A stretch of DNA of 64,000 nt, from positions 1 through 64,000 of the forward strand of contig JAUIKF010000019.1 in the NCBI GenBank assembly GCA_030430575.1. Reading direction: 5' to 3'. The position numbers and the translations under genes were made by a program. The notes below the pieces were generated by a model, which saw only the letters and a program-made list of their open reading frames with translations, was not told the origin of the DNA and did not search any database. Source of the stretch: Bacteroidia bacterium. Its GTDB lineage: Bacteria; Bacteroidota; Bacteroidia; J057. Shown here piece by piece: positions 22,858-43,590 of this stretch. Numbering within the stretch: the first letter of the stretch is position 1; each line of letters starts with the position of its first letter.

Positions 22858-25287
22858 TTAGTTTTCAAGCAAAGCGCGGACTTTGGCAAAGTCGGGGTGG
22901 GTGATGCCTTTGGATTCGATGTAGTCGAGGTCTTGGAGGAAGACCTCTTTGGCAAGACGCTTATCTCGGTAGAAGTGCTTGTCTTTCCATTCTTTATAAA
23001 TGGCCTCCGCTTTTTTGAGTTGATTATTAAATAAATAGCCTAAAGCAAGATTGGTATAGACGCCCGTTTGTGTAGAATCAAGCTCCAGAGATTTTTGAGC
23101 AGAGGTGATTGCGTCTTGGTATTTATTCGCAAAAAGTGCATACCAGCTTCGATTAGACCAATTGGAATAACGGCTTGAGTCCATTTTACAAAGGGCTATA
23201 GAAACATTAAAGGCAGCATGATATTCTTTTTCAGCAAATAATGAATTTGCGAGCCTGGAGTTAATATGCCTATTTTTGGGGTCTGAGAGCCAGATGCCTT
23301 GGCAACTGAGGAACAGTTTGATTTTAAGATAAGGATAGGCGGTGATTTTAGGTATATGGCAAATTCCTTCTGGAAACTTAATGATGGGATTTCCTCTTAT
23401 ATCAAGCTCCTGTAATTGCGTCAATTGTCCAATCTGTTCAGGTAGTGTAGTTAATTTATTGCCAGAAAGGTAAAGGGCCTGTAATTGTGTCAATTGTCCA
23501 ATCTGTTCTGGTAGGCTGTTTAGTTGGTTGCCAGAAAGGTAAAGGGCCTGTAATTGCGTCAATTGTCCAATCTGTTCTGGTAGTGTAGTTAATTTATTGT
23601 TACGAAGGTCTAGGCTCTGTAATTGCGTCAATTGTCCAATCTGTTCTGGTAGTGTAGTTAATTTATTGTCAGAAAGGTCAAGGGTCTGTAATTGTGTCAA
23701 TTGTCCAATCTGTTCTGGTAGGCTGTCTATTCGGTTGGAACTAAGGTTAAGGGTGTGTAATTGCGTCAATTGTCCAATCTGTTCTGGTAGGCTGTCTAGT
23801 TGGATGCCAGAAAGGGCAAGGGTCTGTAATTGCGTCAATTGTCCAATCTGTTCTGGTAGGTTGTCTAGTTGGTTGCCAGAAAGGTCAAGGGTCTGTAATT
23901 GCGTCAATTGTCCAATCTGTTCTGGTAGGCTGTCTATTCTGTTGTAAAAAAGGTCAAGGGTCTGTAATTGTGTCAATTGTCCAATCTGTTCAGGTAGGCT
24001 GTCTATTCTGTTGTAAAAAAGGTCAAGGGTCTGTAATTGTGTCAATTGTCCAATCTGTTCTGGTAGGCTGTATAGTTGGTTGTAACTAAGGTCAAGGGTC
24101 TGTAATTGCGTCAATTGTCCAATCTGTTCTGGTAGGCTGTATAGTTGGTTGCCAGAAAGGTAAAGGGTCTGTAATTGCGTCAATTGTCCAATCTGTTCTG
24201 GTAGTGTAGTTAATTTATTGTTACGAAGGTCTAGGCTCTGTAATTGCGTCAATTGTCCAATCTGTTCTGGTAGCGTAGTTAATTTATTGGTAGAAAGGGA
24301 AAGGGTCTGTAATTGCGTCAATTGTCCAATCTGTTCTGGTAGCGTAATTAATTTATTGTAATGAAGGTCAAGGATCTGTAATTGCGTCAATTGTCCAATC
24401 TGTTCTGGTAGGCTGTCTAGTTGGTTGTCAGAAAGGTATAGGTTCCGTAATTGCGTCAATTGTCCAATCTGTTCTGGTAGCGTAGTTAATTTATTTTTAT
24501 AAAGGTTAAGGGTCTGTAATTGCGTCAATTGTCCAATCTGTTCAGGTAGGCTATCTATTCGGTTGCCAGAAAGGGATAGAATCTTTAATTGAGACAATTT
24601 CCCCATACTTTCAAATAGGTTACCCAATTTGACTTTATCTATCCCACCGTCATAAATTAAAATAACTTCTAATTTGGTATAATCACTTAAATTTTGTGGT
24701 AAACTATTTGGCAGAAATTCCTGGAAATTAAGCGCACGCGTTTCTGAGGTTAATTCGTCAGGACCTTCTGCCAACAGATATTTTTTTCCTAAAGTATCAA
24801 GGAGGAATTTTGATCCGCCAATTTTTACTCTAGCAAATCCATCTCTCCTTGAAAATGGCGTTGCCTCCTCATACTCAAAAGGGAGAACTTCTTCTCCCTT
24901 TTTATTGATAAATCCATATTTTAATTCTCGATACTTATTCCGCTTCAGCGTCAACCCAAATTTTCCCTCATAAAAATACATCTGGTCCAGCACCCGATTG
25001 GCTACCTTTAGGGCAGAATCTGCCCTTCGCTTTTCCGCTTCCGCACGCATCCTTTCTGAATCCGCCAGATCCCGCTCCCCCTCGATCAGTGCAAACGTGC
25101 GCTGAATCAGCCCCCCAATCCGCTCCCGCTCCCGTGGGCACTCCTCCTGCAAGAGCAGGAGTCGATCTATCGCAATTTTGTAATTTCGATCCTCGATATC
25201 CTGCTCCGCACGATCAATAAGCTGGTCGCACTGGGCAAACAGGGTGAGTGGTAGAACCAGCGTGATAAGAAAAAGTAGATTTTTCAT
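22858..25287 (-). CDS. Secreted WG-repeat / leucine-rich-repeat / TPR protein
   Basis: An 809-residue exported protein. Signal peptide 1-18 (TLFAQ). A helical, Arg/Glu-rich coiled region follows (about 20-110), then a WG-type repeat ([19 protein letters not shown], about 120-170) and an LRR domain of about 18 units (about 225-635). The C-terminus has TPR-like helices ([51 protein letters not shown]). Seventeen consecutive 23-residue LRR units share an identical [11 protein letters not shown] half, while the other half varies. Its ATG overlaps the STAND gene's TGA (ATGA), so the two are translationally coupled. The domain order resembles the extracytoplasmic half of some Saprospiria STAND proteins, which suggests a sensor or ligand-binding subunit. 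Confidence 0.9.
23390..24590 (-). repeat. Tandem 69-base repeats encoding the LRR array
   Basis: About 17 head-to-tail 69-base units share a near-invariant segment (plus strand TGTAATTGCGTCAATTGTCC, then AATCTGTTCTGGTAG). A changeable segment encodes residues such as NKLTT, NQLYS and NRIDS. Two adjacent units near 23935-24070 are almost identical, and triplets of units are repeated, which points to recent unequal exchange. Confidence 0.95.
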
Positions 25288-39963: not shown

Positions 39964-40929
39964 TTAATCAGCAGCGAAATTACGCAAAAATCCGCCAACC
40001 ACCGTGTGCCACGTTTGCGGCTCCGCGCAGACAAAACACTGGTGCGCCAATTCCTCAAAGCAATGAAATTGCTTTTCTCCCGAAAGGGCGTCAAAGACTT
40101 CTTGGGCTTGCGGAAGGCGTGCACGGGTGTCTTGCCCGCCATGAAGGACCAAGGTGGGTGTAGAGACTTCAGTCGCATAGTCAACGGAATTGTGGCCAAA
40201 GGCCCAGTAGCCGTGCTGCAAGCCGCCCCAAAACACGAGTGCATCCGCAAAAGGAAAGGAGGGAACTCCCATCAAGTCAAATCGGTTGGCGACGGTCTGC
40301 CGCATCCGCCCAAATGGCGCAGCCATGATCAAGGCATCTGCCAAGCCTTGGGAATCACGAGCAGCCTTTAATATCGTAATGGCCCCCATGGAAAAACCAT
40401 ACAAAACGACCGTTTGAGCCCCCAAAGACTTTTTAGCATATCCAACAGCTGCAATAACATCTTCCGCCTCATGATAGCCCAAGCTCGTTTCACTCCCTTC
40501 TGCTCCGCCGTGCCCAAGCAAATCAATCAGCAAAGACCGATAGCCCATTGCCCGAAAAGCCTTCGCCTGCGGCAATAAGCTGCTCTTTTCTCCCGCATAT
40601 CCATGAACCAAGAGGACGAAACGACCTGTATCAGCAAGGGACGAATCTTTTTTGCTCAGCCAACCTTCCATCTTCAACTGATCTCTGCTAGGAATTTTGA
40701 GGCTAACATAATCAGAAGGAATGGGCAGGTTCTGTGGTTTGGGGATAGACACGCCCGTAAACAAAACGCCTAATCGCTGCCCAAGTGAAAGCTGCTCTGG
40801 TTTGGCTGTTCGTTCACTAGTTTCGCCAAAATGGGTAAAATGGTAGGCGTGATTATACGCAACGATATTGAGCAAGATAAAGCCTCCCAATACGCCCCCT
40901 ATGAACAATCGTTTGAGTTTCCGTTTCAT
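39964..40929 (-). CDS. Membrane-anchored alpha/beta hydrolase
   Basis: A 321-residue hydrolase. An N-terminal hydrophobic helix (about 8-26, FIGGVLGGFILLNIVAYNHA) anchors it in the membrane. The fold shows FVLLVHGYAGEKSSLL (oxyanion loop HG), a nucleophile elbow LYGFSMGAIT (GxSxG), LVLHGGQDTRA with the acid residue, and a C-terminal His in EELAHQCF. It belongs to the Hydrolase_4/BAAT-like group found widely in Bacteroidota; substrate unknown. Gene order is parA, hydrolase, NTF2-like lipoprotein on the minus strand, with hairpin repeats in both gaps. Confidence 0.88.
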   Translation of the reverse strand: MKRKLKRLFIGGVLGGFILLNIVAYNHAYHFTHFGETSERTAKPEQLSLGQRLGVLFTGVSIPKPQNLPIPSDYVSLKIPSRDQLKMEGWLSKKDSSLADTGRFVLLVHGYAGEKSSLLPQAKAFRAMGYRSLLIDLLGHGGAEGSETSLGYHEAEDVIAAVGYAKKSLGAQTVVLYGFSMGAITILKAARDSQGLADALIMAAPFGRMRQTVANRFDLMGVPSFPFADALVFWGGLQHGYWAFGHNSVDYATEVSTPTLVLHGGQDTRARLPQAQEVFDALSGEKQFHCFEELAHQCFVCAEPQTWHTVVGGFLRNFAAD

Positions 40930-40946
40930 AGCTATTAATCGCGAAT

Positions 40947-41012
40947 AGCGCTAACAGGTTGTAAAAAACCTATTAGCGCTACCTAGAACTAAAAACCTAG
41001 AACCTAAAACCT
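40947..41012. repeat. AACAGGTT hairpin and CTAGAACC words after parA
   Basis: AGCGCTAACAGGTT (40947-40960) is inverse to AACCTATTAGCGCT (40967-40980) with one mismatch. It is followed by ACCTAGAACTAAAAACC-type words to 41012. The AACAGGTT/AACCTGTT core is shared with the hairpin at 54570. Confidence 0.8.
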
Positions 41013-41820
41013 AATTATTAGACACCACCCCAAGTCTTGTCAGTGGGAGGTTATTTCGCGTAAGGACTTCCTTGGCGAGGTTCATATAGTTGATGGCACC
41101 CTTGCTGCGCAGGTCATAGGCAATCACAGGCTGCCCATAACTGGGAGCTTCGCTCAGGCGGATGTTGCGGTGAATGACGGTTTCGAAGACCCTGTTAGCG
41201 AAGTGCTGTTTTACATCTGCTACAACATTTTTTGCCAAGCTCAAGCGGCTGTCATACATCGTGAGCAATACCCCTTCGATCTCCAATTCTGGATTGAGGT
41301 TGGCATTGGACTGTACGATGCGGATCGTATTGATAAGCTTGCCTAGTCCTTCCAGGGCAAAGTATTCACACTGGACAGGAATAATGACGGAATCTGAAGC
41401 CGTAAGTGCATTGATCGTCACCAATCCTAGCGATGGGGAGCAATCAATGATGATAAAGTCGTACTCATTGCGCACTTGATCAAGTGCGGCCTTCATCAAA
41501 TGATTTCGCCCCTCCATTTCGATCATGTCTACTTCTGCACCGACTAGATCGATATGCGAAGGCATAAGGTATAGGAATGGAACGTCTGTTTCCTTGACAA
41601 TACTTCTGATGTCGATGTCGTCTTCGATGATGGCATCATAGATGCTTTCATTGATCTCATTGGGATCAAATCCCAAGTGACTCGTAGCATTTGCCTGTGG
41701 ATCTGTATCCACGAGCAGCGTTTTGTATTCTAAGGCTGCCAGGCTGGCGGCCAAGTTGACAGAAGTAGTAGTTTTGCCTACTCCGCCTTTTTGATTAGCT
41801 AAGCTGATGATTTTGCCCAT
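41011..41820 (-). CDS. parA: ParA/Soj chromosome-partitioning ATPase
   Basis: A 269-residue ParA-type ATPase. The deviant Walker A KGGVGKTT is at 11-18, followed by LLVDTDPQANATSHLGF (Walker A') and DFIIIDCSPSLGLVTINAL (Walker B). ATP-dependent DNA binding by ParA positions replication origins together with ParB and parS. Length and start are standard for chromosomal Soj proteins. No parB follows in the window, which is unusual. The gene diverges, across 36 bases, from a lipoprotein gene whose first codons contain a DnaA-box cluster; parA genes often lie near the chromosomal origin. Confidence 0.95.
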   Translation of the reverse strand: MGKIISLANQKGGVGKTTTSVNLAASLAALEYKTLLVDTDPQANATSHLGFDPNEINESIYDAIIEDDIDIRSIVKETDVPFLYLMPSHIDLVGAEVDMIEMEGRNHLMKAALDQVRNEYDFIIIDCSPSLGLVTINALTASDSVIIPVQCEYFALEGLGKLINTIRIVQSNANLNPELEIEGVLLTMYDSRLSLAKNVVADVKQHFANRVFETVIHRNIRLSEAPSYGQPVIAYDLRSKGAINYMNLAKEVLTRNNLPLTRLGVVSNN

Positions 41821-41827
41821 TGTTTAC

Positions 41828-41960
41828 TAGATTTACCGGACAAATATAAATAATAGTTGTTTCACAAAAGGAACATATTCTCCCCCATCCTGTGGATAAG
41901 TCTGTTATCCACATGTATTTTGTGGATAAGCTGTGGAAAAGCTGTGGAAACAGGGGATAA
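41828..41960. other. Candidate replication origin: DnaA-box cluster with AT-rich flank
   Basis: Three perfect DnaA boxes are present within 40 bases: TGTGGATAA at 41891-41899, TTATCCACA at 41905-41913 and TGTGGATAA at 41921-41929. Near-boxes follow: TGTGGAAAA (41932-41940), TGTGGAAAC (41943-41951) and GGGGATAA near 41960. An AT-rich run (ACAAATATAAATAATAG) lies at 41840-41856. A half parS-like TGTTTCAC occurs at 41858. The cluster lies beside parA and inside the signal-peptide codons of the next gene. Direct evidence is the boxes; origin function is inferred. Confidence 0.6.
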
Positions 41961-43590
41961 GGGGCAAGTTTTTCGGATGAATCTCGCCGCGGGCCTGAAG
42001 ACCTTGGACCCTGCTTTTGCAGGGGATAAGCGGGCTGTATGGATGACTGCCCAGCTCTACAATGGGTTGGTAGAGTTGGATGGAGACCTCCATGTACAGC
42101 CCGCCATCGCCAAGCGGTGGGAGATCTCAGAAGATGCTAAAACGTATCGTTTCATCCTGAAAGACAGTGTGTTATATCATTCAGATAAAGTGTTTGAGGA
42201 TTTGGCAGTAGGAAGTAGTAGGCAAAATCAATTCCCTACTCGAAAGGTTATCGCCAGCGATTTTGTTTACAGTTTTACCCGTGTGTGTAATCCTGCTACA
42301 GCCTCTTCTGGCGCGTGGATTTTTAGTGGAAAAATTAAAGGCTTGGAAAGCTTTAAGATTGGGGATAACCCACAGATTTCAGGATTCCAAGCCCCCAATG
42401 ACACTACTTTTGAGGTCCATCTAACAGCCCCATTTCCTCCATTTTTGGGATTACTGGCCATGCCTTATTGTTATGTGGTGCCTAAGGAAGCAGTCGAATT
42501 TTATGGAGATAGGTTTCGATCAAATCCAGTCGGAACAGGCCCTTTCAGGCTATTCCGTTGGGAAGAGGGGCATCATTTGATCTTACACAAACATCCGCTG
42601 TATTTTGAAAAAGATAATGGGGCGCAATTGCCTTATCTTGATGCACTTTCCGTGCGATTTATGCCAAGTAAACTCTCCGCATTCGTCGAATTTTTACAAG
42701 GTAAATTAGACTTTATCAATGGCATCGACGATTCCTATAAGGATGAAATCCTCAACCTCGATGGGTCCATCAAGGACAGCTACGCTTCGCGTTTCCAGTT
42801 TGAGCTAGCGCCACAGCTCAATATCGAGTACCTCGGCATGCTAGTCGATAGTTCCCTTGAAGCAGCCAAAGGCCATCCACTTTCTGATCTGCGCGTCCGT
42901 CAGGCCCTCAATTATGCCATTGACCGCCAAAAGATGGTGCGGTACCTGCTCAATGGCATGGGCTACCCTGCCGAATCGGGATTTGTGCCCAATGGCATGC
43001 CGGGATTCGATGCGACAGCGGTTCCAGGTTATACTTATGACCTGAACAAAGCGCATGCTTTGTTGAAGGAAGCGGGCTATCCCAATGGAGAAGGCCTGCC
43101 TCAATTGACCCTGAACTCTACGGCGCAGTATGCCCATATTTCTGAATATGTACAGAAATCTTTTGAGCAAATAGGCGTTTCGCTCGATGTGCAAAATATG
43201 CAAGGCGGCACGCTTCGCGAAGCTTCAAAAGGGGGGCGTATCAACCTATGGCGTGGCAGTTGGATAGCGGACTATCCAGAGGGGGAGAACTATTTGGCCC
43301 TTTTTTATTCCCCAAATCAAGCACCCAATGGCCCCAATACGACCCGATTTTCACATCCAAACTTTGATGAGCTATATCGTAATTCTCAGGGCATCACCGA
43401 CGACTCATTACGCCAGAGCTACTACCAAGAGATGGATCGCTTGATGCTGGCGCATGCGCCAATTATTCCCCTATACTATGACCGCAGCCTTCGCATCCTG
43501 CAGAAAGGGATCACAGGCCTCGTAGGCAATCCGATGAATCATCTTCAACTCAAGCGAGTGAAGAAAGGGGAGGAAAGTAAAAATAATTAA
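41857..43590 (+). CDS. Lipoprotein peptide-type ABC transporter substrate-binding protein (SBP family 5)
   Basis: A 577-residue extracytoplasmic solute-binding protein of the OppA/DppA class. The Cys of ILWISCGK is a plausible lipidation site. The mature protein has VFRMNLAAGLKTLDPAFAGD, RWEISEDAKTYRFILKDSV, DFVYSFTRV, NPVGTGPFRLFRW and RQALNYAIDRQKMVRYL, all typical SBP_bac_5 blocks. There is no ATG before residue 41, so translation probably begins at TTG 41857 (or a later TTG). The codons for the signal peptide consist of the DnaA-box cluster. No permease or ATPase genes follow, so it must work with transporters encoded elsewhere. Confidence 0.9.
   Translation: MFHKRNIFSPILWISLLSTCILWISCGKAVETGDKGQVFRMNLAAGLKTLDPAFAGDKRAVWMTAQLYNGLVELDGDLHVQPAIAKRWEISEDAKTYRFILKDSVLYHSDKVFEDLAVGSSRQNQFPTRKVIASDFVYSFTRVCNPATASSGAWIFSGKIKGLESFKIGDNPQISGFQAPNDTTFEVHLTAPFPPFLGLLAMPYCYVVPKEAVEFYGDRFRSNPVGTGPFRLFRWEEGHHLILHKHPLYFEKDNGAQLPYLDALSVRFMPSKLSAFVEFLQGKLDFINGIDDSYKDEILNLDGSIKDSYASRFQFELAPQLNIEYLGMLVDSSLEAAKGHPLSDLRVRQALNYAIDRQKMVRYLLNGMGYPAESGFVPNGMPGFDATAVPGYTYDLNKAHALLKEAGYPNGEGLPQLTLNSTAQYAHISEYVQKSFEQIGVSLDVQNMQGGTLREASKGGRINLWRGSWIADYPEGENYLALFYSPNQAPNGPNTTRFSHPNFDELYRNSQGITDDSLRQSYYQEMDRLMLAHAPIIPLYYDRSLRILQKGITGLVGNPMNHLQLKRVKKGEESKNN

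Follow-up and report, generated by a model that had tools for sequence, protein, structure and literature searches.

DnaA-controlled promoters are established in several bacteria, those of Bacillus subtilis sda and Escherichia coli uvrB and others among them (PMC6399470, PMC6015884, PMC11317965), and E. coli DnaA in vivo prefers tandem boxes that lie 2-3 bp apart (PMC11317965). DnaA has also been connected to chromosome partitioning: ParA interacts with DnaA in B. subtilis (Soj-DnaA), and DnaA acts at parS in Caulobacter (PMC9945499, PMC6399470). For chromosomal parAB, little is known of transcriptional control except in Streptomyces, and it is stated to be unclear whether ParA levels are cell-cycle regulated in other bacteria (PMC9945499). 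Promoters of Bacteroidota carry a -7 element with the consensus TAnnTTTG at position -12 to -5 (PMC7366714, PMC9723704).

Here we describe a dense cluster of predicted DnaA boxes beside parA in a Bacteroidia bacterium (genome G000; 8.16 Mb in 127 contigs). The window, i.e., the whole stretch of DNA analysed, comprises 64,000 nucleotides (contig C28, positions 1-64000). We propose, with a probability of about 0.8, that these boxes form an operator at the parA promoter, embedded in the codons of a divergent gene, through which DnaA would set parA transcription.

The parA promoter region and its DnaA boxes

The features of the locus are as follows.

41011-41820, minus strand: parA/soj-type partition ATPase gene, 269 aa, with the deviant Walker A motif KGGVGKTT; Pfam AAA_31 (E=2e-67) and CbiA
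41828-41835, plus strand: possible -7 element for the lipoprotein gene, TAGATTTA, which departs from TAnnTTTG at one position and overlaps the parA promoter face to face; weak in this genome
41841-41848, minus strand: predicted -7 element of the parA promoter, TATATTTG, consensus TAnnTTTG
41857-43590, plus strand: SBP_bac_5 lipoprotein gene, 577 aa, TTG start, divergent from parA; Pfam SBP_bac_5 (E=1e-78)
41891-41899, minus strand: predicted DnaA box 1, TTATCCACA, 50 bp from the parA -7 element, centre at about -59; register kept in six genera (49 bp in one)
41905-41913, plus strand: predicted DnaA box 2, TTATCCACA in opposite orientation, centre at about -73; position found in this genome only
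41921-41929, minus strand: predicted DnaA box 3, TTATCCACA, 80 bp from the -7 element, centre at about -89
41932-41940, minus strand: predicted DnaA box 4, TTTTCCACA, 2 bp from box 3 (tandem pair), centre at about -100
41943-41951, minus strand: predicted DnaA box 5, GTTTCCACA with one mismatch, separated from box 4 by 2 bp

The ParA of the window shares ~55-68% identity with the ParA proteins of other Bacteroidota, several of whose parA copies are followed by parB. A second ParA-like protein, ~41-42% identical to that of the window, is encoded less than ~250 kb from the replication origin in two relatives (G003:C1:3541550 and G005:C1:6688970), and G000 has comparable paralogues on C114 and C41. 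The gap downstream of parA (40929-41010) holds short A+T-rich near-repeats resembling TAGGTTCTAGGTTTT. Elsewhere in the window, the ORF at 22858-25287 encodes a long series of leucine-rich repeats that are nearly identical to one another.

Three perfect TTATCCACA boxes lie within 39 bp (41891-41929), in both orientations, and five predicted boxes lie within 61 bp, with boxes 3-5 forming a tandem triple with 2-bp gaps. The clustering reported by the first-pass annotation, three perfect boxes in both orientations plus two more, is real: perfect TTATCCACA occurs 87 times in the genome (vs 73 for the reversed control), no second trio within 40 bp exists, and the parA cluster is the densest there. 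All five boxes fall within the signal-peptide and lipobox codons of the SBP_bac_5 lipoprotein ORF, where the box codons give LWIS, LLST and LWISCGKAVE; the annotation had likewise read the boxes as codons of this gene. Its remark that this gene has no ATG start was correct as to the ATG, which is missing because the gene starts with TTG, at 41857 and directly behind an in-frame TAG; the lipoprotein genes that adjoin parA in relatives likewise open with TTG. The possible -7 element of the lipoprotein gene has counterparts in G003, G005 and G010, where TAnnTTTG is found near the parA start codon. The lipoprotein gene of G012 (L147, C129:2808-4427) contains an in-frame internal TGA, which may mean either that it is a pseudogene or that the assembly is wrong there.

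The parA -7 element was assigned from the consensus, with no clear -33 element established; transcription is predicted to start near 41836, giving a 5' UTR of ~16 nt. CAAAnnTA (TAnnTTTG on the plus strand) is present upstream of parA in 10 of the 11 family members. A box within 300 bp of parA is likewise present in 10/11. The corresponding figures are 3% for a sample of 810 upstream regions, drawn from four of these genomes, and 6 of 80 for loci from lineages outside the family.

The distance between boxes and -7 element is kept across genera. The first box in parA orientation starts 50 bp upstream of the -7 element in G000, G002, G003, G005 and G010, and 49 bp upstream in G008. A second position, at 80 bp, is occupied in G000, G003, G005 and G010; this position of box 3 is shared by G001 too, if counted from its degenerate -7. 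A third position at 102 bp is occupied in G002, G003, G005 (one mismatch) and G008. In genus g9 (G009, G011 and G012), a box or near-box is found at 35-37 bp. The exceptions are G001 with its degenerate -7 element, G007, which has no exact box at 50 bp, and G011, which has one-mismatch boxes only. When eight whole genomes were searched for the composite motif TTWTNCACA-N42-TAnnTTTG, five had one match each, all at parA, while the reversed control gave 2 matches in all. Consensus boxes thus occupy a regulatory position of the predicted parA promoter, as would be expected of promoters under DnaA control. The first-pass annotation had mentioned a DnaA-controlled promoter region in one line as its alternative reading, and both the register and the composite motif point to such control at the parA promoter.

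The DnaA protein of the same genome, encoded on C15, has a normal DNA-binding domain (PF08299, E=5e-27), and the likely origin of this genome carries the same type of boxes as the parA cluster. No boxes were found at dnaA. At parB, three of five loci had none and the other two had isolated boxes. In this family parB lies away from both parA and the origin (G000:C47:58613, G003:C1:1439711, G005:C1:3576865), unlike the side-by-side parA-parB of several other Bacteroidota.

From these sequence features we infer that DnaA binds the boxes and regulates parA. DnaA would bind box 1, whose centre is ~59 bp ahead of the predicted start of parA transcription, and would also assemble on boxes 2-5 farther upstream, including the tandem triple with its 2-bp gaps, so that parA transcription would be set by the amount or the nucleotide state of DnaA. 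Sites near -59 are in the usual place of activators (class I), and the same is true of sites near -45 (class II), where the g9 boxes lie. Because of this resemblance we lean slightly towards activation rather than repression of parA, as a guess from position. By analogy with Soj in Bacillus, ParA might in turn act on DnaA and form a feedback loop.

Boxes, signal-peptide codons and parA

Four genomes in which parA has no lipoprotein neighbour (G002, G008, G009 and G012) still have boxes at parA, and two of these, G002 and G008, belong to the six genera that share the register. Conversely, the lipoprotein gene is found at another locus in G009 and G012, and its signal-peptide region is free of boxes in both. 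The boxes thus go with parA. Part of the similarity among the parA regions of the family may reflect shared descent.

The cluster could instead be a site of DnaA titration, or of inactivation or reactivation in the manner of datA or DARS, that lies near parA by accident. Several DnaA molecules could load on the tandem boxes, and in two relatives the cluster is distant from the origin. However, a titration site would be expected neither to keep an exact register to the parA -7 element nor to be missing from lipoprotein genes away from parA. We consider this explanation unlikely; the proposed parA operator may in addition titrate DnaA as a side effect.

Regulation of the lipoprotein gene itself, for example by a DnaA roadblock in the 5' coding part, with parA being secondary, would fit the position of the boxes within the first codons, downstream of the start of the gene. 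Their absence from lipoprotein genes away from parA and their retention at parA where the gene is lacking make this very unlikely, though the boxes may affect the lipoprotein gene in addition to parA.

Finally, coding constraint and chance might account for the boxes as a by-product of W-I-S-C lipobox codons, since TGG ATA AGT TGT encodes a workable lipobox and a single box can thus arise cheaply. When the first 50 lipoprotein codons were re-drawn synonymously by the codon usage of the genome, the shuffled sequences contained on average 0.04-0.36 boxes, vs 3-4 observed in four genomes (P<5e-5 in G000 and G010, 5e-5 in G003 and 5.5e-4 in G005); the signal was weak in G001 and G007 (P ~0.04). 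In G003 and G005, moreover, the 9-mer occurs in a frame that gives (L/M)WIS and again in a frame that gives VDK. Together, the shuffles show that the predicted boxes exceed the coding constraint of the signal peptide. With boxes in a second frame, the same register in G002 and G008 where no lipoprotein gene adjoins parA, and a composite motif unique to parA, the by-product explanation is highly improbable. The boxes are thus kept with parA beyond both chance and coding constraint, which again is consistent with a DnaA-regulated promoter.

Since the parA promoter and the beginning of the lipoprotein gene overlap, sequence upstream of this promoter falls within the signal peptide; a DnaA operator of parA would therefore lie among the signal-peptide codons, and it would be kept there by synonymous and amino-acid choices that the peptide tolerates. 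This makes the locus a clear case of an unrelated gene whose signal-peptide codons also carry a putative regulatory array.

Location of the replication origin

The first-pass annotation had favoured the cluster as the chromosomal replication origin, because its boxes are dense, occur in both orientations and lie beside parA and an AT-rich run, and had named GC skew as a check. In the genome of the window, cumulative skew, sampled in stretches, instead has its minimum on contig C24, at ~68 kb (the lowest point of that contig), and in G003 at 3.787 Mb. The C24 minimum coincides with eight TTWTNCACA boxes (68.05-68.45 kb) upstream of a thiL-like gene, part of a thiL-exonuclease locus, and the region of ~60.9-68.4 kb (L076, L148 and L156-L163) that holds the minimum and the eight boxes also contains both parS sites of the genome.

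The same arrangement was found in two relatives with near-complete chromosomes. On the 7.54-Mb chromosome of G003, the sampled skew stays below zero between 0.1 and 3.78 Mb and above zero between 3.80 and 7.34 Mb, with small local exceptions. The sign changes at 3.787-3.788 Mb, in an intergenic region that contains six TTWTNCACA boxes and lies upstream of a thiL-like and an exonuclease-III-like gene; parS is at 3.794 Mb, while parA is at 6.51 Mb amid uniformly positive skew. In G005, the skew switches at ~6.6-6.8 Mb, the thiL-like gene is at 6.769 Mb, parS at 6.776 Mb and parA at 0.94 Mb. In both chromosomes parA is 2.3-2.7 Mb from the switch, with equal skew sign on its two sides, and the sampled skew revealed no switch near it. 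The parS sequence, GTTCCACGTGGAAC, occurs exactly twice in each of the three genomes (G000, G003 and G005), always within ~8 kb of the thiL locus (~7 kb in the genome of the window) and never at the parA cluster.

As skew switch and parS sites meet at the thiL-like gene, the origin most likely lies upstream of it, on C24 in the genome of the window, and the parA cluster is something else. An origin at parA is ruled out by the skew, the parS sites and the thiL locus, and we regard the residual chance of it as negligible. The analysis thereby likely places the true oriC and the parS sites of this lineage.

Other Bacteroidota and known systems

Possible diverged boxes outside the family raise the idea that DnaA control of parA is old and widespread in Bacteroidota, as a transcriptional circuit between initiation and segregation that is possibly closed by an action of ParA on DnaA. 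Upstream of outgroup parA genes, TTCCACA occurs 12 times vs 2.1 in shuffles, sometimes at 43-49 bp from a -7 element, and TTATCAACA occurs 13 times vs 0.4 in shuffles (all outgroups). In several Bacteroidales (e.g., L197, L200, L218, L220 and L222), TTATCAACA lies 84-97 bp from the parA start codon. The outgroup signal at an offset of 47 consists of four sequences, two of which look related, and these are too few for a claim. As a candidate DnaA box of other Bacteroidota, TTATCAACA would form clusters near the origin, yet no cluster of it was found within ~20 kb of parS in four genomes, and the phylum-wide ancient circuit is therefore kept as hypothetical; we rate it as possible, with the odds clearly against it. 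If true, the circuit would use TTCCACA at ~43-49 bp from the -7 element and TTATCAACA upstream of many parA genes.

A search of open-access papers found no published parA promoter with DnaA boxes. DnaA-controlled promoters themselves are known; our analysis suggests that what is new is parA as their target, with the operator hidden in coding sequence.

The lineage's own origin, with its thiL-like gene and a parS pair ~7 kb off, shares its DnaA boxes with the parA cluster and differs in being on C24 and in bearing the skew switch and parS, neither of which the parA cluster bears. E. coli datA, where an IHF site is usual, and DARS are likewise clusters of DnaA boxes outside oriC (PMC12371093), whereas the parA boxes are in register with a promoter. 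The cluster also resembles the DnaA-regulated promoters of B. subtilis sda and of E. coli uvrB and other members of the DnaA regulon, in which boxes precede the promoter of a gene for the cell cycle or for DNA functions, and its tandem boxes match the 2-3 bp spacing reported from ChIP-seq in E. coli (PMC11317965). The parA cluster differs from the sda and uvrB promoters in its target, in its Bacteroidota-type TAnnTTTG promoter with a register fixed across genera, and in an operator placed within the signal-peptide codons of a divergent gene. Soj-DnaA in B. subtilis and DnaA at parS in Caulobacter link replication initiation to segregation, as we propose for the parA cluster; those links are made between proteins or by DnaA at parS, whereas the one proposed here would be made at parA transcription. 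Coupling of replication and segregation is known mostly as cross-talk at the protein level, and a putative parA operator in fixed register makes a transcriptional link testable.
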